NCBI GenBank assembly: GCA_903231505.1 | Contig: CAFBRK010000216.1 | Span: forward strand, 1-64,000 | Length of the DNA: 64,000 bases | Source: Olavius algarvensis associated proteobacterium Delta 3 | Lineage (GTDB): Bacteria; Desulfobacterota; Desulfobacteria; Desulfobacterales; CAFBRK01 | Direction: 5' to 3' | In this document: positions 14,288-30,548 of the stretch, piece after piece | How positions within the stretch are numbered: position 1 is the stretch's first letter | Layout of the letters: each line of letters starts with the position of its first letter | Notes under the pieces: generated by a model | Seen by the model: only the letters and a program-made list of their open reading frames with translations | Told to the model about the DNA's origin: nothing | The model's database searches: none | Translations under genes and position numbers: made by a program

Positions 14288-15565
14288 TCAGACCCCCCCG
14301 AATTTCAACAGGTTGCCCTCCCCGTCGAATCCCGGCCGTTTCCAGGGACCGATCCGGTCCATTCCGGAATGATCCTCAATCTCCGATGCCAGTGCCCGGG
14401 ACACCATCATGGTTTCCAGACTTTTTGTGTCCCGGATCCGAACGATCCTCGCCTTGCGCCCGCCTTCATAACCGGCGGTGCGGATGCAGGCTTCTATCGC
14501 CTGGCGGTCCGATTCAAAATGCATGGGAATGGCCGCTTTCTCCGGTGAGATGGCCGCAATGGCATTGACGTATGTTTTCTGAACATCGATGGCATCCACC
14601 AGGCGTCGGGTCGTGACATCGGCCAGGCCGATGCCGTTGGCGTTACCATCGGATTCCGGAGCCAGGTCCCGGACGAATATCCGTTTAATGTGGGGGGATG
14701 TGAAAAAATCTCCGGTGACATCCCGGTGTCGACCGGTCACATTGGAGTCCATGCCGATCCCGCTGATGTTTTTTCCGATCACATCAACGACCAGAACATC
14801 GAGAGGATCAAACGGGATGCGCGCCATCCACTCGTAAGCGTGACGCAGCAGCTGCGATTCCTCCGCGATCAATCCTTCCGGGGACACCGCCGAGACCTCC
14901 GCCAGCCGGCTGTACCCGTCCTCAATAAGCGCCAGACCAAACAGAAAATTGCCCTTTTCGACCACGGCAACCGCCCCCTCCTGGATGATTCCGAAACCGT
15001 GCCGTATCGCGGATCGATGAAATTCCGTGGCGCCGTGAACCTTCCCCAATCCAATGGTGAGCATCTTGCAGATGCCGCTCTCGATGGGCGCGCTAAATTT
15101 TGTATGGGGTTTGACCCGATTAATGACCACCAGGTGATCCGCTTCAATGGCGTCTTTTGCGCAGAACAGGTGGACATCGCCTCTGATCCGCCCAAGGGAG
15201 ATCGCCTCCATATCGGAGCATAAAGGCGCGCCCATAGCCTCTTCGGTGATTCCCAGATGGGATAAAATGGCCCTTTGGCCGTCTGCCGTGCCGCCGCCAT
15301 GGCTCCCCATGGCCGGCACCAGAAAAGGCCGGAGGCCGTGATCCTTGATCCCCTGGATGCACTGGTGAACCACCTCCGCCAGGCGATCGATGCCGCGGCT
15401 GCCCACGGCCACGGCCACGGTATCACCGACCGTGGTGCGGGCAGCGAGGGGAACGGTTGAAACGGTCCGGGAAACAGCAGCAGGCACGTCAAGTACCGGC
15501 GCCGAGTAAAGCCTCTGACGAACCGCGGCCATTTCCGGTAGTTGAATGGTGGATGTTGGGGTCAT
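14288..15565 (-). CDS. LarA-family nickel-pincer isomerase homologue
   Basis: This 425-residue protein belongs to the LarA (lactate racemase) N-terminal-domain superfamily. Typical blocks are VAVAVGSRGIDRLAEVV, LVPAMGSHGGGTADGQR, VINRVKPHTKF and the following KMLTIGLGKVHGA. In LarA, histidines and a lysine in corresponding regions hold the nickel-pincer nucleotide cofactor; the His/Lys of VKPHTK and the later VHGATEFH fit this. The substrate is unknown; these homologues act on various 2-hydroxyacids. A good ribosome-binding site (CCGAGGTGCCCC) precedes the ATG. It is a single gene, and no larB/larC/larE cofactor genes are seen nearby. Confidence 0.8.
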   Translation of the reverse strand: MTPTSTIQLPEMAAVRQRLYSAPVLDVPAAVSRTVSTVPLAARTTVGDTVAVAVGSRGIDRLAEVVHQCIQGIKDHGLRPFLVPAMGSHGGGTADGQRAILSHLGITEEAMGAPLCSDMEAISLGRIRGDVHLFCAKDAIEADHLVVINRVKPHTKFSAPIESGICKMLTIGLGKVHGATEFHRSAIRHGFGIIQEGAVAVVEKGNFLFGLALIEDGYSRLAEVSAVSPEGLIAEESQLLRHAYEWMARIPFDPLDVLVVDVIGKNISGIGMDSNVTGRHRDVTGDFFTSPHIKRIFVRDLAPESDGNANGIGLADVTTRRLVDAIDVQKTYVNAIAAISPEKAAIPMHFESDRQAIEACIRTAGYEGGRKARIVRIRDTKSLETMMVSRALASEIEDHSGMDRIGPWKRPGFDGEGNLLKFGGV

Positions 15566-16273: not shown

Positions 16274-17254
16274 TCATAAATTGCGGACTTCCATCAAAGC
16301 GAGCAGCGCAGTCTCCTTCGGCATTCCCGGAGGGGCTGCTGAATCCGGGGTGATCCAGCGCTCGACGACCGTGTCGGTCGGAACACCGGGGATCCGGTAA
16401 ACCGACAGGGACCCGACCCTCTCTCCCACCCCCGGTGCAACAGGCAATTCTGCGGCGGGCGAGGCGTCCGGGTGTGACAGCATCACCATGTAGCTGCCCA
16501 AACTCTGCCGCCATTGGTGATCAGAACCACCGCCCGGGGGGCCCGTCACGGGTATCCGCTCGAAGAAGGCAACCTGTTGGGTTTGCGGAACCGCTTCCAT
16601 CACCTCCTCTAGCACGGCGCGACTGGTGGTAACCATAACCGTTGGTCCGTCCGGCGGTGCGGGTGGTTCCAACAGAAATAGACGCGCCCAGGCATTGAGA
16701 CGATCGACGGTCATAAACGCTCCCGGATCCTGGGGTATACCGATATCCGGTGAGGATCGGCCCGCTGCTGCCGGTTCCCCCTTTAGATCCTGAAAGAGCG
16801 CCGTCTCCAACTGTTCAAAGCTTCCCAGCTCGCTTTCAAGATCCGAGATTTTAGCGTCGTACATCTGGGCCATCTGCAAAAAAATCCGGGCCTTCTGCAA
16901 TGGATCCCTCTCCGTGGGTCCACGCCCTTTGCTGATTAATTCCGATCGGATGCGGGAGATACTGGTGTCGTCGTAGAACGGGACCGAATCCGCCTGGGAT
17001 TTCAGCCAGGCTATCTCGCTGCCGCGATGCACGGTGGCCCAGTCATGAAACTGCCGCAAGACCTCTCCCATCGCATCATCGTCCCCGGCAGCGCTTCGGT
17101 CCAGCACCAGGCGGCCATCCCGCTCCGCCTGGATCATACCCCCCGGAATCTCGAGCGCCGACGGCAGCAGCACATGGATCGGTTGAAAGCAAGCATTCAG
17201 CGCTTCGAGAGCGCTGTGCGATACGAACGTGAATGGAAAAAACAGGGTTCTCAT
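16274..17254 (-). CDS. Conserved-looking protein of unknown function
   Basis: This 326-residue protein is soluble, with no signal peptide and no domain I recognise. The N-terminal 60 residues (FVSHSALEALNACFQPIHVL) look like a folded module. Residues about 120-160 (QKARIFLQMAQMYDAKISDL) predict a helical, coiled-coil-prone segment. The C-terminal half has several proline-rich turns and a hydrophobic-strand pattern (MVMLSHP, SLSVYRIPG). It ends upstream of the ferredoxin gene and begins 75 bp after the CysK/CysRS-like gene stops, so it may be the last gene of the tmk-CysK/CysRS-like transcript. Function is unknown. Confidence 0.65.
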   Translation of the reverse strand: MRTLFFPFTFVSHSALEALNACFQPIHVLLPSALEIPGGMIQAERDGRLVLDRSAAGDDDAMGEVLRQFHDWATVHRGSEIAWLKSQADSVPFYDDTSISRIRSELISKGRGPTERDPLQKARIFLQMAQMYDAKISDLESELGSFEQLETALFQDLKGEPAAAGRSSPDIGIPQDPGAFMTVDRLNAWARLFLLEPPAPPDGPTVMVTTSRAVLEEVMEAVPQTQQVAFFERIPVTGPPGGGSDHQWRQSLGSYMVMLSHPDASPAAELPVAPGVGERVGSLSVYRIPGVPTDTVVERWITPDSAAPPGMPKETALLALMEVRNL

Positions 17255-17328: not shown

Positions 17329-19608
17329 CTAAACCCGTCGGTCTCTGACGTCCACGCCCATCTGGATCAATTGCTCACGGATAGCGTCGGCGCGCGCCCA
17401 GTTTTTTTCCTGCCGGGCATTGTCACGTTCAGTCAGAAGTTGCCGGACTTCCGGCGACAGGTAAAAATCCCCAAAATCGAAAATGTTCAACACCGTGTCG
17501 ATACCGCGAAAGGCATCGATGAGCCGTTCAGCCGCCTCCCGATCGATACGGCCGTCCTGAAGCAGGCTGTTGATGTGCCGAACGGAGTTGAAGACCGCGG
17601 CCATAGCCTCGGCAATATTGAGATCATCATCCATCGCGGTGGTGAATCCCTGCTTTAAATCGTAAATAAGCTGATCCAGTTCCGCGTAGGGACGATGATG
17701 GTCAACCGCGTTAAGCGAGCGGAGACAGGTATCGAGGCGCTTGAGGGCTCGTCCGGCATCGATCATCCGTTCTTTGGAAAAAAAGATGGACTTTCGGTAA
17801 TGGGTGCCCATCAGCCAGTAGCGGATTTCCCGATGGGTGTATCCCATGGCGGTCACATCCGACAACGATATCCGGGCTTTCTGGCGATCCGCGGTTTTTG
17901 AATCTTCATGGGCCGGATCGCAGTGCACCCAGTAACGCGCCAGAGGCTCTCCATTCAGCGCCGCAGCGATGGCAATTTCATTTTCGTGGTGCGGAAATGT
18001 ATGTTCCCGCCCTCCGGTGTGAATATCAAAACAGTTGCCCAAGTGCTTCATGGACATCGCCACGCATTGAAGGTGCCACGAAGGACGAACATTTCCCCAT
18101 TCGGTTTTTACGAAAATACCCCGTTTTAGCTCCGACAGCCGACAACGTTTAAACAGAGTGAAGTCCCGGGGGTTGTCCTTCTCATAGTCGTCCAGATCCA
18201 CCGTCGCACCGAGCTTGATTTTGTCCAGATCGATGCCGGAGAGCTTACCGTAATCGTTGAATCGGGATATGTTGAAATACAGCGACCGAAGCTTTTCGTA
18301 GGCAAATCCCCGTTTCACCAGCCGTTCGCCCATCGCGATCATGTCGTCAATGTGTTCGCTGGCCCGGGGATACACATTAGCGGGCAACAGCCCAAGTCCC
18401 GCCACATCCGAGTGAAATTCATCGATGTGGCGCTGTGTAAAGGCTTCCAGCGCCATCCCGGCCCGTTCGGATCCGGCGATGGTCTTGTCATCCAGGTCGG
18501 TGATGTTCATCACATGGATCGTTTTGTGGCCGCGGAATTGCAAATACCGCACCAGCAGGTCGGCAAACACAAAACGGCGGCATTCTCCGAGATTGATCCG
18601 GGCGTGGGCGGTCGGGCCACATGAATACACGGTGGCTTTGCCGACATCGATCGGTTCGAAGGGTTCCTTTGAACGGCTCAGGGTATTGTAGAGTTTAAGC
18701 GGAGTGATATGATGACGCGTCTCAAAAAGGGGGGTACTCAGGTATCGTTCCCCGCTGTCGGGTAAAATCGCGACGATCACACCCTGGTCGAGACCTTCGG
18801 CTTCTTTGCAGGCGATTGCCATGGCGGCGCCGCTGCTCATCCCGACAAACAACCCCTCCTCCCTGGCGAGGCGACGTGTCATCTGAAACGCCTCGTCATC
18901 TTCCACATGAACCTTCCGGTCTAGCCTTTTTTTATCAAAAATTTCAGGAGGATAAGATTCTTTTACATTTTTTAGCCCCTGAATCTTGTGTCCCAGATAA
19001 GGTTCGACACCCACGATTTGAATGTTCCGGTTATACTCTTTTAGCCGTCGCGCCATCCCCATCAGGGTTCCTGAAGTGCCGAGGGTGGCCACCAGGGTGG
19101 TAATGCGGCCTCCGGTTTGTTCCCAAACTTCCTCTGCAGTGCCGTGATAATGGGCTTTCCAGTTGGCCTCGTTGTTGAACTGATCGGCCATGAAATAACG
19201 ATCCGGATCTTCCCGGACCAACCGGTATACTTCCTCGATCGCGCCATCGGTACTCAGATGGCCCGGTGTCAGAAGTATTTCAGCACCCCGGGCCTCTAGA
19301 ATTTTTTGCCGTTCAATGCTGACCGATTCGGACATGGCAAGCAGCAGTCGGTAGCCTTTGACCGCACAAACCACCGCCAGACCAATGCCGGTATTCCCGC
19401 TGGTGGCTTCAATGACAGTTTTGTCCGGCGTCAATGCGCCCCTGGCTTCCCCGTCTTCCACCATGTACAGTGCGGCCCTGTCCTTGATGGAGCCGCCCGG
19501 ATTGAAGTACTCCAATTTGGCCAGAACCTGAACGTTCGGATTGGGATTTACCCGTCGGATTTCCACAAGGGGTGTGTTGCCGATGGTGTCGATGAGTGAA
19601 TAGCTCAT
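17329..19608 (-). CDS. Cysteine synthase fused to a degenerate cysteinyl-tRNA synthetase-like module
   Basis: This 759-residue protein joins two enzymes of cysteine metabolism. Residues 1-298 form a PLP-dependent cysteine synthase (CysK/CBS fold) with PLP lysine K42 in GGSIKDR, SGNTG at 70-74, the phosphate loop GTSGT at 177-181 and SSGAA at 258-262; it looks active. Residues 303-759 align collinearly with cysteinyl-tRNA synthetase, ending with the family's KNWARADAIREQL helix. The zinc ligands are kept (C330, C515, H540, E544), as is TFPHHENEIA. However, the HIGH position reads NLGE (339-342) and the KMSKS position reads TADRQ (572-576), with no change of spacing. Aminoacylation by this module is therefore unlikely; it may bind tRNA, cysteine or zinc, or channel product. 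A true CysRS must be encoded elsewhere. It lies 33 bp after tmk. Confidence 0.93.
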   Translation of the reverse strand: MSYSLIDTIGNTPLVEIRRVNPNPNVQVLAKLEYFNPGGSIKDRAALYMVEDGEARGALTPDKTVIEATSGNTGIGLAVVCAVKGYRLLLAMSESVSIERQKILEARGAEILLTPGHLSTDGAIEEVYRLVREDPDRYFMADQFNNEANWKAHYHGTAEEVWEQTGGRITTLVATLGTSGTLMGMARRLKEYNRNIQIVGVEPYLGHKIQGLKNVKESYPPEIFDKKRLDRKVHVEDDEAFQMTRRLAREEGLFVGMSSGAAMAIACKEAEGLDQGVIVAILPDSGERYLSTPLFETRHHITPLKLYNTLSRSKEPFEPIDVGKATVYSCGPTAHARINLGECRRFVFADLLVRYLQFRGHKTIHVMNITDLDDKTIAGSERAGMALEAFTQRHIDEFHSDVAGLGLLPANVYPRASEHIDDMIAMGERLVKRGFAYEKLRSLYFNISRFNDYGKLSGIDLDKIKLGATVDLDDYEKDNPRDFTLFKRCRLSELKRGIFVKTEWGNVRPSWHLQCVAMSMKHLGNCFDIHTGGREHTFPHHENEIAIAAALNGEPLARYWVHCDPAHEDSKTADRQKARISLSDVTAMGYTHREIRYWLMGTHYRKSIFFSKERMIDAGRALKRLDTCLRSLNAVDHHRPYAELDQLIYDLKQGFTTAMDDDLNIAEAMAAVFNSVRHINSLLQDGRIDREAAERLIDAFRGIDTVLNIFDFGDFYLSPEVRQLLTERDNARQEKNWARADAIREQLIQMGVDVRDRRV

Positions 19609-19641: not shown

Positions 19642-20277
19642 TTATTCCGCCAGCTTACCGGACAGGATGGAAAGGATCCGGGCACGGACCTTTGCTCTGC
19701 TTTGCGATGCGTCGATGATCTGAAAACGATCGGGGTCTTTCTGGGCCCTGTCCAGATAGCCTTCCCGGACTTTTCTGTGGAAGCGGAGGTCCTCCTCTTC
19801 AAACCGGCTCTCTTCACTTTCCCGCTCCCCGTTGACGATGCCCTTCCAGGCGCGAGCAAGGCCGACCTCAGGATCGAGATCCAGAAGCAGTGTCACATCC
19901 GGAAGCAAATTATTAAATAGAATCCCGTGAAGCTGTTCAATCAAATCCACGTCCAGCCCCCGGGCGTATCCCTGATAGACCACGGTGGCGTCAAAAAACC
20001 GATCCGATACAACAACCCGATCCTGGGACAGGGCGGGGCGGACCAAGGCTTCCAGATGCTCGGCCCGGTCCGCAAAATAGAGCAGCAGTTCGGCTAACGG
20101 CGCCAGACCGGATGTCTGCGGATCCAGCAGAATGGATCGAATCTTTTCTCCGCTTCGGGTGCCGCCCGGTTCCCGGGTGACCGTGTAAGCAATCCCCCGG
20201 CCCTGCAGAAAATCTTCGATATAACCGATCTGGGTGGTTTTGCCGCAGCCTTCAATGCCTTCCAATGTGATGAACAC
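19642..20277 (-). CDS. tmk: Thymidylate kinase
   Basis: This 211-residue dTMP kinase makes dTDP for DNA synthesis and indirectly for dTDP-sugars. The P-loop is EGIEGCGKTTQ, the DR(E)P-type thymidine motif is TREPGGTRSGEKIR, DRFFDATVVYQGYARGLD follows, and the LID region carries basic residues. Length is normal. It is the first gene of the leftward tmk - CysK/CysRS-like pair. The upstream 320 bp is repeat-rich and separates it from the next operon. Confidence 0.96.
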   Translation of the reverse strand: MFITLEGIEGCGKTTQIGYIEDFLQGRGIAYTVTREPGGTRSGEKIRSILLDPQTSGLAPLAELLLYFADRAEHLEALVRPALSQDRVVVSDRFFDATVVYQGYARGLDVDLIEQLHGILFNNLLPDVTLLLDLDPEVGLARAWKGIVNGERESEESRFEEEDLRFHRKVREGYLDRAQKDPDRFQIIDASQSRAKVRARILSILSGKLAE

Positions 20278-20600: not shown

Positions 20601-21560
20601 CTACCGATCGTCGTCGGTCTTGCCTTTGTAAAAATGCCTCCCGAGCACCCGATGGTAGGCCGTCCATGCTTCCCCGGGGTCCTGGGTTGCCATGAATTCT
20701 CGAACACCGTTTACTTTGGAGTCAATTTCGTCAATGTAGTGAAGCAAAAGGGCTTCGATGGTTTTCGGCGGTTCCGGGGAACCGAACTCCAGAGCCCCAT
20801 GGTGGCTGATGACCAAATGTTTGAGAAGAACGGCCAGCTCCTCCGGAAAGCCATCGATGTCCGCCAGTTTTTCGTCGATCATCTTCAATCCGATAACGAT
20901 GTGTCCGACCAGTCGACCTTCGTCGGAGTAGTCGATGTTGGTGTGATAATCGAATTCCCGAACCTTTCCGATGTCATGAAGGATGGCTCCTGCCAGCAGC
21001 AGGTCTCGGTTGATGCCGCTGTAATGGTGGGCCATGTTATCGGCCAGAACGGCCATGGACAGGCAGTGTTCCAGAAGCCCACCCACGTAGGCATGGTGCA
21101 TCATTTTAGCGGCAGGCGCCCGCTTAAAGGCGCTTACGAAATCCCTGTCGTCCCAGAACGCCCGGAGAAGGGCTTGAATCGATGGATCTTCAAGCCCATC
21201 GGTCATCTGAACCAGCCGTTCAAACAGGTGATCCACGTCATGTCGTGTTACCGGTAGAAAATCTCCGGGATCGACACTCTCCGGGGAACATTTTGCCATG
21301 GATCGGACGGTCGCCTGAAGATTGCCGCGATATTCTGTGACGCGTGCGGTCACCTGCACAAAGTCTCCGGAATCTGCCGCCGTCGCAATCCTCTCGACAT
21401 CGTCCCAGACCACACCGCCGATGGATCCCGTCTTGTCCGCCAGGGCCACCGTCAAATAGCTGTCACCATCTTTCTTTTGGGCCAGATTTTTTTCTGCCAG
21501 GACAAAGACATCATCGACCGCATCGCCCGGTTTCATATCGCTCACATACTGGTGTTTCAT
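20601..21560 (-). CDS. OB-fold/HD-domain nuclease, YhaM family
   Basis: This 319-residue protein has the YhaM 3'-5' exonuclease layout. An N-terminal OB-fold (about 15-100, with SYLTVALADKTGSIGGVVWD) binds single-stranded nucleic acid, followed by an HD domain (about 155-285) with HHAYVGGLLEH, the metal pair in AILHDIGK, and HLVISHHG. The family degrades RNA or DNA from the 3' end using manganese-type metals. The gene starts 3 bp after the giant GlmS-like gene stops, so the two share a transcript and probably coupled translation. Confidence 0.9.
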   Translation of the reverse strand: MKHQYVSDMKPGDAVDDVFVLAEKNLAQKKDGDSYLTVALADKTGSIGGVVWDDVERIATAADSGDFVQVTARVTEYRGNLQATVRSMAKCSPESVDPGDFLPVTRHDVDHLFERLVQMTDGLEDPSIQALLRAFWDDRDFVSAFKRAPAAKMMHHAYVGGLLEHCLSMAVLADNMAHHYSGINRDLLLAGAILHDIGKVREFDYHTNIDYSDEGRLVGHIVIGLKMIDEKLADIDGFPEELAVLLKHLVISHHGALEFGSPEPPKTIEALLLHYIDEIDSKVNGVREFMATQDPGEAWTAYHRVLGRHFYKGKTDDDR

Positions 21561-21563
21561 AGG

Positions 21564-24500
21564 CTATCCATTCCGTTTCGTGCCATTGACACTGGAACAG
21601 ATAAACTCGGCAATCTTCTCAGCCGATCGCCCAAACAGCTCTTCCAGCGGCAATAGCTCCAGATGAGAATCCTCCCAGGGGATACTGTTCTCATGAACGA
21701 GGTTCTGGATATGTTCGTATTTACCACCCAGGGCCTTCACTTTTGCCGTCAGCGGGACCTCCGACCGGAAACCGATATTGAGCAGCAACAGATACTCGAT
21801 GATATTGGGCCGGTCCGGCGATGTTGAAATAGCGGGAATAACCAGGATGCTGCGATTGTCCTTTCGCCCCTTTCCAATGTACACATTGCCCTGACGCACA
21901 ATAATCCGCTTGGTTCCCTTCAATCGGCGGTCGGTTTCCACCCGTGACGGGATGGGCTCCAGGACGCCGGATTTTTGGAGTACGTCAATGGTCGTCCCGT
22001 CGGTCAGATCGCCGAGTAGATTCAGGCCGTCGATACGGTAAAGAATCGAACCTTTTATGTTGCTGACGATCGACTGGAGGTTTTTGAGCACCAAGACATT
22101 CCGGTTGATCAGCTGCGACACGCTGATACCGTGAGCGTCAAGGGATTCGAAGAGAACCCCTTCGACCTTCTCTTCGAGGCGGCTGGTACCCACCGTGACC
22201 GTTTTGGCCTGGTGTTTGATCGCGTCCACCGGACGCGCCAGGCAGTTGATCGCTTCCCCCAGGCACTGGAACAGCCGGTCGAGCATGTTTCGGGCGGTTC
22301 CTTTAACTCTGAAATCGATTTCAAAATCCGAAACCGGCAACCGCCCGGCCAGGTACTTTAACAAAAGGGTCAGATCCGATGCGATTTCCACACCCATCAT
22401 TCCGGGCAGCTGTTTCTCGGACTTGACCTTCCGGAATTCGTTGTAGAATCGGGCGATGGATTCCCGAAATGTCTTTTCCAGCACGATCTCGAAAACATCC
22501 AGCCCATTGCGAGCAAACCGGGCCACCGCAGCCTGGATCTGCTGCCGATGCCGATACAGGAAACCGGAGGCGTCGTTGATGGACAGCGCCGCATAGTATC
22601 CCCAGATGTGGCCGACCAAGGTGTTGAGGATAGGGGCCAAGTGCTCACGGACCACCGGTATGTAAAAGATGTCTTCGGCATACGGCTCGAATCGCAAATC
22701 GCCGTCATCGGCAATAACCACCGGCAGTGCCTTGTGGGCCCGGAATATGGCCGTGTCTTTTACGATATCGCCGATAACCGTGCCGCGGGTCCCGGCGGCA
22801 CAGACGATGATCAACGGCTCGGAAGATAAATCGATGTGTTTTTTGTCCTCAACGAAATCCGAGGAAATCGTCTTGTAACACAGCTCGCTGAGCTTGATCC
22901 GGATTTCATCGGCTGCGGCTTTGTTGGGGCCGCTGCCCACCGCCGCCCAGTATGTGCGCTGAACCGCCAGTCGCCTGGCACTGGCGGCAATTTGTTCCCG
23001 AATGCCGAGAATCGAGCGCATGTGGTTCGGAATCGCCAGCAGCCGCTGGATTTCCTCGGCGATGAAGGTGCGCGTGCGACGCTCCTTGAGTTGGGCAACA
23101 AACAGACCCAATATCGCGCCGGCGATGATTTGCGAGTAAAAGGCCTTGGTGGAGGCCACCGACATTTCAATGTCCCTCCCGCTGCTGGTATACAGTGTGC
23201 CGTCCACCTTGAAGGTCAGGTCGGAATCCCTCCGGTTGACAATCGCCAGGGTGCGGGCGCCTCGCTCACGAACCATATCCACGGCCCTGTTGGTGTCGGT
23301 GGTGGTGCCGGATTGACTGATCGCAACGACCAGGGCGTCGGCCATGTCTCCGGCTCCGGCCTGTCCGAGCCGGAATCCGGACAATTCGGAGGCTTTCATG
23401 GCACTGATGTGCAGCGTCGGATCAGCCAGGTAGAAGTTCAGGATGTCGGCACAGGCCAGGGCCGCCACGCCGGCCGTACCCTGTCCGATAAAGAAAATGC
23501 GGCGAATGCGGTCTCCGACCACATCCTTCCGCAACGACGCCGGAAATACGGCCGTGTCGAGGCGAATCTCCGTGTGGGGAGTATCCCCTCCGCTGATTTT
23601 CCACCGATTCAGCAAGGTCCGTTCGACAGATTGCGGGGCTTCGGAAATCTCTTTCAGAAAATAGTGGGGATATTCCTGGCGATCGATATCACGGGAGGTA
23701 ATTTCGGTCTGCTTGACCTGTTCGGCGGTCAGCCGCAGCGGGGTCCCGTCATAGTAGCTGGCAGTGATCCCTTCCGGTGTCACCTCGGCCTCCTGATCGA
23801 GAATGAGAATCTGGCCCTGGGTCTGCCCCGCCACACCCTCGATCACGGCCTCACCGTCCATTTTAATGAATCGGGACGTCTCTTCGACAAAACCGTAAAC
23901 CTCGGAGGTGGCCATGAAATGATCCTCGGACAGGCCGACGAAAATGGTTTGGCCGCTGCCCTTCTGGGCGAGGTACAGTTTTCCCGGCGCCAGGTCTGTA
24001 TGCATGCTGATGGCATGGGAGCCCTCGAAGTCATTGACGGCGCAGCGGAACGCCTCTGCCACGGACTCCCCCTGCCGGAGGTATTTTTCGATCTGAAGGG
24101 GAATCAGTTTGGTGTCCGTGGTGATATCCTGGTGCAGCAAGACACCCTCGTTTTCGAGAGCCTTTCTGAGTTCCAGGTAATTGTCGATGTCACCGTTCAG
24201 GCAGACATGGATAATCGCGTCCTGTCTGGGCCCGTTGCCGACGGTGTCGTTGTCGACAGGGTGGCAGTTGGCTTCGCTGATGGCGCCGACGGAGGCCCAT
24301 CGGGTATGGGATAGAATGGTGGCATGCTGACGGGGAATGGTCAGGAGCCGATGCAGGATCGCATCCTGCCGGATCTGCTCTCGCAAAAAGCGGGGATTGT
24401 CTCCGAGACTGCCGATCTCGGCGGCCACCTTGTAGGCCATGGCCACGGAGTGGCGGACAGCTCCGTCTGCTTCAATTTTCCGGATACCGATGCTGCCGTT

Positions 24501-25376
24501 GACCAACACATCCCGTTGCATCCGGTCCGCTAACGCCTCTTTCAGGTTTTCCTTATCGATCACCGCCATGAACCGCTTATACGCTGGATCGTCCAGAGCG
24601 ATCATCAGAGAAAGACCGGCTGAATCTCTGCCCCGGACCTCCAACCGTTCGATGCTGTTGAGGACGGTGTTCACCCGTTGTAAAAAGGTCCGGGCCTCCG
24701 GGTCTCCAGGAACTCCGGCAGCGCCCATCAAATGGTCGAGTTTAGCGATATTGCCGATAATTTCCGAGTGGATGCACCATTTGGCATCCTTTAACATGTC
24801 TATCCGTGAGGTAATCGTATCGACGGAACGGGCATCGAGGCGGCCGATATCCGCCGCCAGCAGGGATGCCTCGGTGTCACAGATATGCCGGATGCGTTCG
24901 GCAGCCTCGCGAAGAGCGAATTTACATGGGTCGCTCGAAAATATCTCTTGAAACTGCCGAACGCCCTTCAATTCCTTGATGGCGTGAAACAGGGTTTCAA
25001 GGGAGTTATTTCCGCCGAGATAGCCGTCCTCCAAATCGGGCCGACCATCCCCAAACTTCTCCAATCCGCTTTGCTCGAGTTGCTCCAGAAAAGCCTCGAT
25101 CGCCCCCAGGTCTACCCCTTCGGACGTCGCCTCCCTGCTTTTGACAGCAACCAGCCCCGCGAGACCGCAACACAACAATGCCTGGCGGCAAGGAAACAGC
25201 ACAATCGATCCATCCGGGACGGTGGCGGTGTGACGTCCGGCATACACGCTGTAACGTCCCAACCGACAGATTCTGGCGCCCGCTCCGACGGCCTGCCGCA
25301 CCAGACGGCCTATTGGCGGCAACGGCAACCGGCACCACCTTCTCCACCGGGGGTATTTTTCATCGACGTTGTTCAT
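21564..25376 (-). CDS. Giant GlmS-like glutaminase/double-SIS protein (1270 aa)
   Basis: The core is glucosamine-6-phosphate synthase-like but twice the usual length. Class II glutaminase motifs are scattered: CGLAG at 70-74 (the catalytic Cys position), RGRDSAG at 248-254, HTRWASVG at 357-364, H372, NG at 394-395 and D421. A helical insert of about 170 residues separates the first two. SIS domain 1 (about 620-760) has SQSGTTTDT and VASTKAF. SIS domain 2 (about 800-930) keeps KLSE (E831, the GlmS Glu488 position) and H847. AKTVTV at 1057-1062 matches the GlmS C-terminal tail lysine loop, yet about 115 extra residues precede it and 205 follow. The candidate nucleophile C70 is not N-terminal, so activity would need processing or a different start; the 69 upstream residues look like real protein. 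kdnB lies just upstream. Confidence 0.88.
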   Translation of the reverse strand: MNNVDEKYPRWRRWCRLPLPPIGRLVRQAVGAGARICRLGRYSVYAGRHTATVPDGSIVLFPCRQALLCCGLAGLVAVKSREATSEGVDLGAIEAFLEQLEQSGLEKFGDGRPDLEDGYLGGNNSLETLFHAIKELKGVRQFQEIFSSDPCKFALREAAERIRHICDTEASLLAADIGRLDARSVDTITSRIDMLKDAKWCIHSEIIGNIAKLDHLMGAAGVPGDPEARTFLQRVNTVLNSIERLEVRGRDSAGLSLMIALDDPAYKRFMAVIDKENLKEALADRMQRDVLVNGSIGIRKIEADGAVRHSVAMAYKVAAEIGSLGDNPRFLREQIRQDAILHRLLTIPRQHATILSHTRWASVGAISEANCHPVDNDTVGNGPRQDAIIHVCLNGDIDNYLELRKALENEGVLLHQDITTDTKLIPLQIEKYLRQGESVAEAFRCAVNDFEGSHAISMHTDLAPGKLYLAQKGSGQTIFVGLSEDHFMATSEVYGFVEETSRFIKMDGEAVIEGVAGQTQGQILILDQEAEVTPEGITASYYDGTPLRLTAEQVKQTEITSRDIDRQEYPHYFLKEISEAPQSVERTLLNRWKISGGDTPHTEIRLDTAVFPASLRKDVVGDRIRRIFFIGQGTAGVAALACADILNFYLADPTLHISAMKASELSGFRLGQAGAGDMADALVVAISQSGTTTDTNRAVDMVRERGARTLAIVNRRDSDLTFKVDGTLYTSSGRDIEMSVASTKAFYSQIIAGAILGLFVAQLKERRTRTFIAEEIQRLLAIPNHMRSILGIREQIAASARRLAVQRTYWAAVGSGPNKAAADEIRIKLSELCYKTISSDFVEDKKHIDLSSEPLIIVCAAGTRGTVIGDIVKDTAIFRAHKALPVVIADDGDLRFEPYAEDIFYIPVVREHLAPILNTLVGHIWGYYAALSINDASGFLYRHRQQIQAAVARFARNGLDVFEIVLEKTFRESIARFYNEFRKVKSEKQLPGMMGVEIASDLTLLLKYLAGRLPVSDFEIDFRVKGTARNMLDRLFQCLGEAINCLARPVDAIKHQAKTVTVGTSRLEEKVEGVLFESLDAHGISVSQLINRNVLVLKNLQSIVSNIKGSILYRIDGLNLLGDLTDGTTIDVLQKSGVLEPIPSRVETDRRLKGTKRIIVRQGNVYIGKGRKDNRSILVIPAISTSPDRPNIIEYLLLLNIGFRSEVPLTAKVKALGGKYEHIQNLVHENSIPWEDSHLELLPLEELFGRSAEKIAEFICSSVNGTKRNG

Positions 25377-28628: not shown

Positions 28629-30548
28629 TTATTTGATGGCCGTTCCGGGGTCGATGGGGCGATCAACGGTGACCAGGCTCAAATCGTCGTCTCCCACCGC
28701 CGCCAGAACCATCCCATTGGAGAGCGTCCCCATCAGTTTGGCCGGTTTTAGATTGGCCGCCACCACCACTTGCTTGCCTTCAAGGTCTTCGGGTCTGTAG
28801 CTGCCGGAGATACCGGCCACGATGGTCCGACGCTCTCCCATATCCACCTCCAGTTTCAGAAGCTTTTTGGCCCGGGGTATGGGCTCCGCCGTGATAATTG
28901 TCGCGACCCGGAGATCCACCCGCTGGAGCGTTTCCATGTCGATTTCCGGTTTCATCGTGAGACCCGCTTCCGAACCCGTTGCGTCGGACGCTTGAGCGGC
29001 ATCCGGTGGTTGTTCAATGCGCGGGAACAGGGCCACGGCTTCGGGAATACGGATGCCGGGCGGAAGCGTTCCCCAACGGGAAAGGGGATCCATCAGAAAA
29101 AACGGGGCATCCGGATCCTGCCCCAGGTGCTCCTGCATTTTTTTGGCCGTATCCGGCATGACCGGATAGATCAGACCGGAAACGATGCGCAGCCCTTCCA
29201 GCAGATGGTAGATCACCGTTGCCAGTTCTTTCCGGGCTGCGGGTTGTTTGGCCAGTTCCCAGGGCGATGTGACATCGACATATTTGTTCATCTGGCTGAT
29301 AAACGTCCATACGGCCATCATGGCTTTATGAAACTCAAAATCCTCCATGAAGCGCCGGTACTGCTCGAGGGCTGCGGCCGCATCCTGCGACAAGCGGATT
29401 CCGGAATCTGATCCGGCCTCTCCCATGGGTTCCGGAACGATGCCATCGAAATATTTTCGTGCCATGGCAATGACCCGGGAAAATAGGTTTCCCAGATCGT
29501 TGGCAAGGTCTGCATTGATTCGGCCGACAAGGGCATCCTCGCTGAAACTCGAATCGAGTCCGAAGACCATGTCCCGCATCAGAAAAAACCGAAATGCGTC
29601 AAGCCCGTATTTATTCTTTAAATTCAGAGGTTCCACAACGTTTCCGAGGCTTTTCGACATCTTGCTCTCGGCCACGTTCCAGTACCCGTGAACGTTGAGA
29701 TGGTTATATAACGGGATACCGGCGGCTTTGAGCATGGTCGGCCAATAAATGCCATGGGGTTTAAGAATATCTTTTGCCACGATATGCTGGGCGGCCGGCC
29801 AGAACCGGTCGAAAAGCTCCCCCCCGGGGTATCCGAGTGCCGACACGTAGTTGAGCAATGCGTCGAACCAAACGTATGTGACATAGTTCTCATCAAAAGG
29901 GAGCGTGAGACCCCACCGGAGTCGGGACTTCGGGCGTGAAATGCAAAGGTCTTCGAGGGGCTCCCGCAGAAAGGCAAGCACTTCATTTTTATACCGCTCG
30001 GGGCGTATAAAGTCCGGGTGCTGTTGAATGTGGTCGATGAGCCATTGCTGGTATCGACCCATTCTAAAAAAGTAGTTCGACTCCTTGATGGGCTCCGGTG
30101 CGACTTCATGGTCCGGGCACTTGCCGTCCACCAGTTCCCGTTCCGTGTAGAAACGCTCGCAGCCGAAGCAATAGAGCCCCGCGTACTCACTGAAATAGAT
30201 GTCTCCGGCATCATAAATCCGTTGAAGAATGTTTTTGACAACGGCCTTATGGGATGGATTGGTGGTCCGAATGAATTGATCGTAGCTGATGCGGAGCTCC
30301 GGCCAGAGGTCTTTGAAAAGACCGCTGAACTTGTCCACATAGCTCTGGGGCGTCATGTCTTCCCGCTGAGCCGCCTGCACGATTTTATCGCCGTGCTCAT
30401 CGGTTCCAGTTAAAAAATAGGTGGCGTCTCCTTTCATGCGATGAAATCTGGAGGTCACGTCGGCCAGGATCGTGGTGTACGCATGCCCCAGATGGGGTCT
30501 TGCATTGACGTAATATATCGGTGTGGTGATATAAAACCTTCCGCTCAT
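28629..30548 (-). CDS. metG: Methionyl-tRNA synthetase
   Basis: This 639-residue class Ia synthetase charges tRNA-Met. The HIGH-type motif is HLGH in NARPHLGHAYT, the KMSKS motif is intact in SKMSKSLGN, and a zinc knuckle reads CFGC with CPDH. A C-terminal EMAP/Trbp111-type tRNA-binding domain (RVDLRVATIITAEPIP onward) is included, as in dimeric MetRS. Start ATG overlaps the stop of ricT by 4 bp (ATGA), so it is translationally coupled to ricT and holB upstream. Confidence 0.97.
   Translation of the reverse strand: MSGRFYITTPIYYVNARPHLGHAYTTILADVTSRFHRMKGDATYFLTGTDEHGDKIVQAAQREDMTPQSYVDKFSGLFKDLWPELRISYDQFIRTTNPSHKAVVKNILQRIYDAGDIYFSEYAGLYCFGCERFYTERELVDGKCPDHEVAPEPIKESNYFFRMGRYQQWLIDHIQQHPDFIRPERYKNEVLAFLREPLEDLCISRPKSRLRWGLTLPFDENYVTYVWFDALLNYVSALGYPGGELFDRFWPAAQHIVAKDILKPHGIYWPTMLKAAGIPLYNHLNVHGYWNVAESKMSKSLGNVVEPLNLKNKYGLDAFRFFLMRDMVFGLDSSFSEDALVGRINADLANDLGNLFSRVIAMARKYFDGIVPEPMGEAGSDSGIRLSQDAAAALEQYRRFMEDFEFHKAMMAVWTFISQMNKYVDVTSPWELAKQPAARKELATVIYHLLEGLRIVSGLIYPVMPDTAKKMQEHLGQDPDAPFFLMDPLSRWGTLPPGIRIPEAVALFPRIEQPPDAAQASDATGSEAGLTMKPEIDMETLQRVDLRVATIITAEPIPRAKKLLKLEVDMGERRTIVAGISGSYRPEDLEGKQVVVAANLKPAKLMGTLSNGMVLAAVGDDDLSLVTVDRPIDPGTAIK

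Follow-up and report, generated by a model that had tools for sequence, protein, structure and literature searches.

The window analysed here, a stretch of 64,000 nucleotides, carries on its minus strand (17329-19608) a single open reading frame for a protein of 759 aa, in which an N-terminal cysteine synthase is joined to a C-terminal pseudo-cysteinyl-tRNA synthetase (pseudo-CysRS). The gene and its features are as follows.

17329..19608 (-): fusion gene, 759 aa (open reading frame, profile matches, orthologues in relatives)
18724..19590 (-): cysteine synthase domain (PALP, CysM-type), residues 7-295 (TIGR01136, PF00291, structure match to 2bhs)
19483..19485 (-): PLP lysine K42 in NPGGSIKDR, unchanged throughout the 90-row alignment
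19387..19404 (-): residues 69-74, the TSGNTG substrate loop; no variation at S70, G71, N72, T73 or G74 in the same 90 rows
18970..18972 (-): K213, which lines up with M. tuberculosis CysM R220 and does not vary in the 90 rows; aligned spans to 3dwi_A and 3dki_A of equal length
18700..18723 (-): residues 296-303, linking the two domains; the model is of low confidence around 291-300
17338..18699 (-): CysRS-derived module, residues 304-757 (TIGR00435; structure matches to 8qhp and 1u0b)
18619..18621 (-): zinc ligand C330 (E. coli C28), from alignment
18583..18594 (-): HIGH site, reading NLGE, residues 339-342, from alignment
18574..18576 (-): R345, fusion-specific; Arg in 143/144 fusions and Pro, Ser, Ala or Thr in standalone CysRS
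18064..18066 (-): zinc ligand C515 (E. coli C209), from alignment
18004..18015 (-): GGxD ATP-ribose site, reading GGRE, residues 532-535, from alignment
17989..17991 (-): zinc ligand H540 (E. coli H234), from alignment
17977..17979 (-): zinc ligand E544 (E. coli E238), from alignment
17881..17898 (-): KMSKS site, reading KTADRQ, residues 571-576, from alignment; model loop 572-576 of low confidence
17338..17460 (-): CysS_C anticodon-binding domain, residues 717-757 (PF23493), with R728, R732, W737, D741, R744 and D756

Thymidylate kinase (tmk; 19642-20277, -) lies 33 bases upstream of the fusion gene and is preceded by a gene for an HD-domain/OB-fold protein (20601-21560, -). On the other side, an uncharacterised 326-aa protein with no Pfam match is encoded at 16274-17254 (-); at 51 of 116 loci it accompanies the fusion, in most cases as the next gene downstream. 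These three were the recurring neighbours, within the order only, and no cysteine-related gene was found among the conserved neighbours of the fusion. The arrangement of HD/OB protein, tmk and fusion recurs across the window's order, which suggests an operon. The same strand also encodes a 425-aa protein weakly similar to the lactate racemase N-terminal domain (14288-15565, below the Pfam cut-off), with relatives near the fusion in 6 loci; a protein of 1270 aa that combines glutamine amidotransferase and SIS domains, in a GlmS-like layout, with long extra regions (21564-25376); and an ordinary methionyl-tRNA synthetase with a C-terminal tRNA-binding domain (28629-30548). No tRNA genes were found in the 64,000 nucleotides.

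Both halves of the protein were recognised by profile searches. Residues 7-295 matched TIGR01136 (cysKM) at 362 bits against a cut-off of 344, and also PF00291. Residues 304-757 covered 457 of the 466 positions of TIGR00435 (CysRS) at 341.5 bits, against a cut-off of 340, and all the Pfam parts of a CysRS, namely the catalytic tRNA-synt_1e, DALR_2 and CysS_C, were found there; identity to the nearest solved CysRS sequences was about one third. In an AlphaFold model of the fusion built from 90 orthologues, each half was confident (mean pLDDT 89.8), but the arrangement of the halves was not (pTM 0.70), and the block near residues 291-300 averaged only 57. In structure searches, the CysRS half of the model matched CysRS 8qhp with a TMt of 0.91 and E. 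coli CysRS in complex with tRNACys (1u0b) with a TMt of 0.83, and the PALP half matched E. coli cysteine synthase B (2bhs) with a TMt of 0.96.

Homologues of the fusion were then counted in related genomes. Among genomes of the same order, 82 of 96 matched at E<=1e-200, most of them over the full length, so an error of sequencing or assembly was ruled out; the observation first made from the sequence alone was confirmed as real. At E<=1e-120, 136 of the 345 genomes of the phylum sample matched. Named organisms among the matches were Desulfobacterales, Desulfobulbus, Desulfocapsa and unclassified deltaproteobacteria, and the fusion group consists mostly of sulfate-reducing bacteria. One apparent loss of the CysRS half (genome G160) was discounted, as the gene runs off its contig. 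The family counts given below come from an alignment of 144 distinct fusions (143 with a complete C-terminus) against 86 standalone CysRS, in E. coli numbering. In the tree, the CysRS halves of the fusions formed one clade apart from standalone CysRS (SH-aLRT 100). The fusion is ancient, and since its CysRS halves group in this way, the simplest reading is that it was joined once. The length of the CysRS module, about 455 aa, was stable across the deep divergence of the fusions.

The residues expected of a PLP-dependent cysteine synthase, K42 and the TSGNTG loop, were invariant, and a CysM-type loop stands in place of the CysK-type loop. As predicted from these residues, the N-terminal half is an intact CysM-type cysteine synthase. 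The invariant K213 occupies the position of R220 of M. tuberculosis CysM, a residue which we take to have a role in O-phosphoserine sulfhydrylase activity; E. coli CysM aligns over an equal span there and is probably also basic, hence K213 alone is no proof of the donor. Unfused cysteine synthases from genomes mostly lacking cysE fell in a different, CysK-looped clade and were rejected as the ancestor before fusion. Such an unfused CysK-looped synthase, with GTSSGAN and DRAERYFST, was observed in five phylum genomes that have neither the fusion nor cysE (G105, G107, G177, G206 and G235; L284-L288).

The CysRS half, on the other hand, failed the test for the CysRS signature motifs, since its HIGH and KMSKS sites read NLGE and KTADRQ. 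The preliminary description had noted NLGE and TADRQ at these sites, which the alignment bore out, and had overlooked a further loss at GGxD, a motif that helps hold ATP in class I enzymes. In the family, no fusion (0/144) had an intact KMSKS or a complete GGxD, the second lysine K269 was kept in 0/144, and the best members read KMSRS; HIG[H/N] was kept in 6/144, all distant from the window member. By comparison, standalone CysRS had HIG[H/N] in 85/86 and the KMSKS pattern in 83/86. Conservation of the exact letters NLGE and TADRQ across orthologues had been named beforehand as a sign of support. It was not found: the loss is conserved and the replacement letters drift, commonly reading HLGE and KKVDE in the order. 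On the CysRS tree, the KMSKS-like trait needed 12 changes. With HIGH, GGxD and KMSKS all gone, the CysRS half of the window member is, by its sequence, adenylation-dead.

The zinc site followed another course. The window protein keeps all four ligands, as first described, and also W511, but this does not extend to the family: all four were present in 86/144 fusions, and at least one was missing in 58/144. Among the 143 complete fusions, 124 had at least three ligands and 19 had two or fewer; in one family (L278-L280) the ligands were wholly lost apart from the His. The zinc trait required 12 changes on the tree. Because the site was lost repeatedly, a zinc-cysteine carrier, one of the roles suggested earlier, would not be the general function of the module.

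The anticodon domain gave the opposite picture. R728, R732, W737, D741, R744 and D756 correspond to R423, R427, W432, D436, R439 and D451 of E. coli CysRS, of which R423, R427, W432 and D436 contact G34 of tRNA-Cys (PMC12684709). R423, R/K427, an aromatic residue at 432, D436 and D451 were present in every complete fusion (143/143), even in the 19 that have no more than two zinc ligands, and this residue set underwent zero changes inside the fusion clade. We take D451 to be an anticodon contact as well. The mean entropy of the domain was 1.97 bits in fusions and 1.80 bits in standalone CysRS; since the surrounding domain is thus not unusually conserved, selection seems to act on the anticodon-reading positions themselves. 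Demands of folding or packing could account for part of this constancy, as standalone CysRS keeps the same residues. The preliminary description had rightly reported that the CysRS tail is kept and had missed this invariance, which is the best clue of all. The family thus shows synthetase chemistry lost stepwise while one set of contacts stays fixed.

Some residues were specific to the fusions. The invariants R345, K439, T469, R488, L491, E493, L494, K495 and G497 lie, except R345, in or near the segment that matches E. coli 111-200, which was more conserved in fusions (entropy 1.14 bits) than in standalone CysRS (1.60 bits). A domain interface is one possible reason for the conservation of this segment.

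We also searched the genomes for other genes of cysteine metabolism. The window's genome has a separate intact CysRS (C255:139729-140670; L001) with HIGN, KMAKS and the zinc ligands, so that the check for a second cysS proposed at the outset came out positive and the fusion is not needed for the supply of Cys-tRNA. This standalone enzyme (32% identical to the fused half) belongs to another branch than the HIGH-type CysRS of most relatives in the order. At least two CysRS matches were found in nearly all fusion genomes. Four genomes of the family f111 gave a single match; both genes are present in them, the fused one (E ~1e-26) being too eroded for the strict cut-off, and f111 was therefore dismissed as a one-CysRS family. 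The other exceptions were low-completeness genomes and one in which the fusion runs off the contig. The module being adenylation-dead, conserved in relatives and accompanied by a genuine cysS, the earlier idea that it has been repurposed is upheld.

On C293, the window's genome additionally carries cysE and cysK as a pair, so that the fusion is not the sole route there. The sole-synthase test drew on a phylum sample of 148 genomes and used the 60 that have the fusion, with thresholds of E<=1e-60 for cysKM and E<=1e-25 for cysE. The fusion was the only cysKM match in 31 of the 60. cysE was absent from 28 of these 31 and from 2 of the 29 with a second cysKM match (Fisher p=3e-11, a value that ignores shared ancestry, so that the true strength is lower, in a search to which serine acetyltransferases of other families are invisible). 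This distribution says that the fusion can work without O-acetylserine made by CysE, as judged from gene content. SerA, at the start of the route to phosphoserine, was present in 20 of 21 genomes checked, a set made up of 20 cysE-less ones and the window's own; canonical SerC was found in only some of those checked, and others had a related aminotransferase-like match beside SerA. The serine donor of the fusion would most likely be O-phosphoserine. The preliminary description had not seen that in many genomes the fusion stands in for the route through CysE, and the fusion is a candidate cysteine synthase for many genomes of the phylum that have no serine acetyltransferase.

Here we propose a model by summarizing the above results. 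Tentatively, and with somewhat less than an even chance of being right, we regard the fusion as a CysE-independent cysteine synthase, probably acting on O-phosphoserine, that is regulated or positioned by a pseudo-CysRS binding tRNA-Cys without charging it. The attached synthase would make cysteine without CysE, most likely from O-phosphoserine and sulfide. The pseudo-CysRS would form no cysteinyl-adenylate and would grip tRNA-Cys by its GCA anticodon; in many lineages its zinc could still bind cysteine. Whether tRNA-Cys sits on the module, and whether its end is charged or uncharged, together with cysteine in the zinc pocket where this is kept, may then tune how active the synthase is or where it acts. 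Cysteine normally limits its own synthesis through feedback inhibition of CysE. Where CysE is absent this control point is missing, and a sensing module on the synthase would replace it, so that the CysE-less route, too, would come under end-product control. We infer the O-phosphoserine donor, the binding of tRNA-Cys and the regulatory effect on the synthase from sequence, and at a pTM of 0.70, with no fixed arrangement of the halves, no allosteric path was visible in the model. A cysteine or tRNA-Cys sensor was among the functions first guessed for the module; it fits the retained anticodon residues and stands as a proposal. In a bolder reading, which we consider rather unlikely, the enzyme would read the tRNA of its own product: tRNA-Cys, recognised by its anticodon, would either gate cysteine synthesis by its charging state or, at the most radical, bring an attached serine derivative into the PLP active site, so that cysteine is made on tRNA.

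Several other explanations were weighed against this model. The module might be a tether or scaffold that leaves the catalytic rate unchanged and anchors the synthase to tRNA-Cys, to CysRS or to the translation apparatus, so that cysteine arises close to where it is needed; or it might do no more than stabilise the enzyme. Invariant anticodon residues, a stable module length (about 455 aa) and a flexible linker (pTM 0.70) are consistent with this, but the repeated partial retention of the zinc-cysteine pocket (all four ligands in 86/144) suggests that the module does more than hold the enzyme passively in place, as do invariants found only in fusions, R345 and G497 for example; we consider a tether unlikely. 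Somewhat less probable still is a sensor of free cysteine only, resembling HisZ, in which zinc-bound cysteine would inhibit the synthase and the anticodon domain would serve folding or oligomerisation. C330, C515, H540, E544 and W511 are kept in the window, 124 of 143 fusions have at least three zinc ligands, and HisZ-HisG is a direct precedent. Against it, zinc ligands were lost about a dozen times, all but the His in L278-L280, and the anticodon readers never.

The remaining explanations carry little weight. If the PLP half converted a serine derivative on tRNA-Cys, the fusion would be a fold-type II counterpart of SepCysS. The joining of a PLP synthase to a non-charging module that reads tRNA-Cys, and its place as the sole synthase in cysE-less genomes, would suit such a reaction; however, an ordinary CysRS is present in these genomes, we know of no enzyme that would mis-acylate tRNA-Cys here, and cysteine synthases have deep active sites whose normal substrates are free amino acids; synthesis on tRNA is regarded as very improbable. 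A working bifunctional cysteine synthase-CysRS with unusual motifs is hardly credible. Six distant members keep HLGN and KMSRS, and the ancestor may have been active, but K269 and a complete GGxD occur in 0/144, the window's own genome and nearly all other fusion genomes have a cysS besides the fusion, and for the window member, without any of the three ATP motifs, an active CysRS was rejected. The same very low standing is given to a role as cysteine persulfide synthase, like CPERS, or as zinc-cysteine carrier, for which cysteine and PLP chemistry in one chain and the zinc site kept in the window could speak. Persulfide synthesis by CysRS reportedly uses the lysines K73, K76, K266 and K269 of the KIIK and KMSK motifs. 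These are not conserved in the fusions, which failed this lysine test (K269 in 0/144, K76 mostly replaced), and the zinc ligands were lost repeatedly; the persulfide role put forward earlier is weakened accordingly.

The fusion was finally compared with known systems. It shares with CysRS (CysS, EC 6.1.1.16) the fold, the length, the zinc ligands (in the window), the anticodon domain and the G34-reading residues, and differs in having no HIGH, GGxD or KMSKS, in being joined to a cysteine synthase and in coexisting with a genuine cysS. With CysM and CysK (PLP fold type II) it has in common the PLP lysine, the TSGNTG loop, a cysKM profile score over the cut-off and, for CysM, the loop type; unlike them, it carries a 455-aa CysRS module and serves in many genomes that have no CysE. 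M. tuberculosis CysM, an O-phosphoserine sulfhydrylase, resembles it in the equal-length loop match, in K213 at the R220 position and in the CysE-independent distribution, but has no CysRS module.

Two other CysRS-derived proteins were considered as identities and rejected. In Desulfobacterales, the same kind of bacteria, a second CysRS homologue, CysRS*, is known (cysS*/selC*)(PMC9437257, PMC7609411); it is active, has no anticodon domain and travels with selC* (PMC7609411). The fusion is the reverse, with an anticodon domain (PF23493) and a position away from selC*/selB*: no tRNA gene was found in the window, and the neighbours are tmk and the HD/OB protein. MshC (mycothiol ligase) is likewise derived from CysRS, works outside translation and has a similar fold (3c8z), but its profile has no region for the anticodon domain, the match in the window protein stops at residue 703, and the TIGR03447 score of 176 bits is far from the cut-off of 485.

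Among the open-access PMC papers searched, no description of such a fusion was found; in database records it may already be annotated as bifunctional. The interpretation of the fusion as reading tRNA-Cys is new. HisZ, an inactive HisRS paralogue, activates HisG and mediates inhibition by histidine (PMC10795190). By analogy, HisZ would be comparable to the pseudo-CysRS and its closest precedent, as a dead synthetase paralogue serving the biosynthetic enzyme of the same amino acid; it is, however, a separate class II subunit, whereas here a class I module with its anticodon residues kept is fused. The HisRS-like domain of GCN2 is a synthetase-derived, tRNA-binding sensor that controls a kinase in eukaryotes, whereas the module described here is fused to the amino-acid-making enzyme itself. 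Dead synthetases as regulators are thus known from HisZ and GCN2, and the papers searched described none that is fused to the synthase of its own amino acid with the anticodon residues kept. If the model is true, the supply of cysteine would be tied directly to the demand of translation, in a phylum with a central part in the sulfur cycle.
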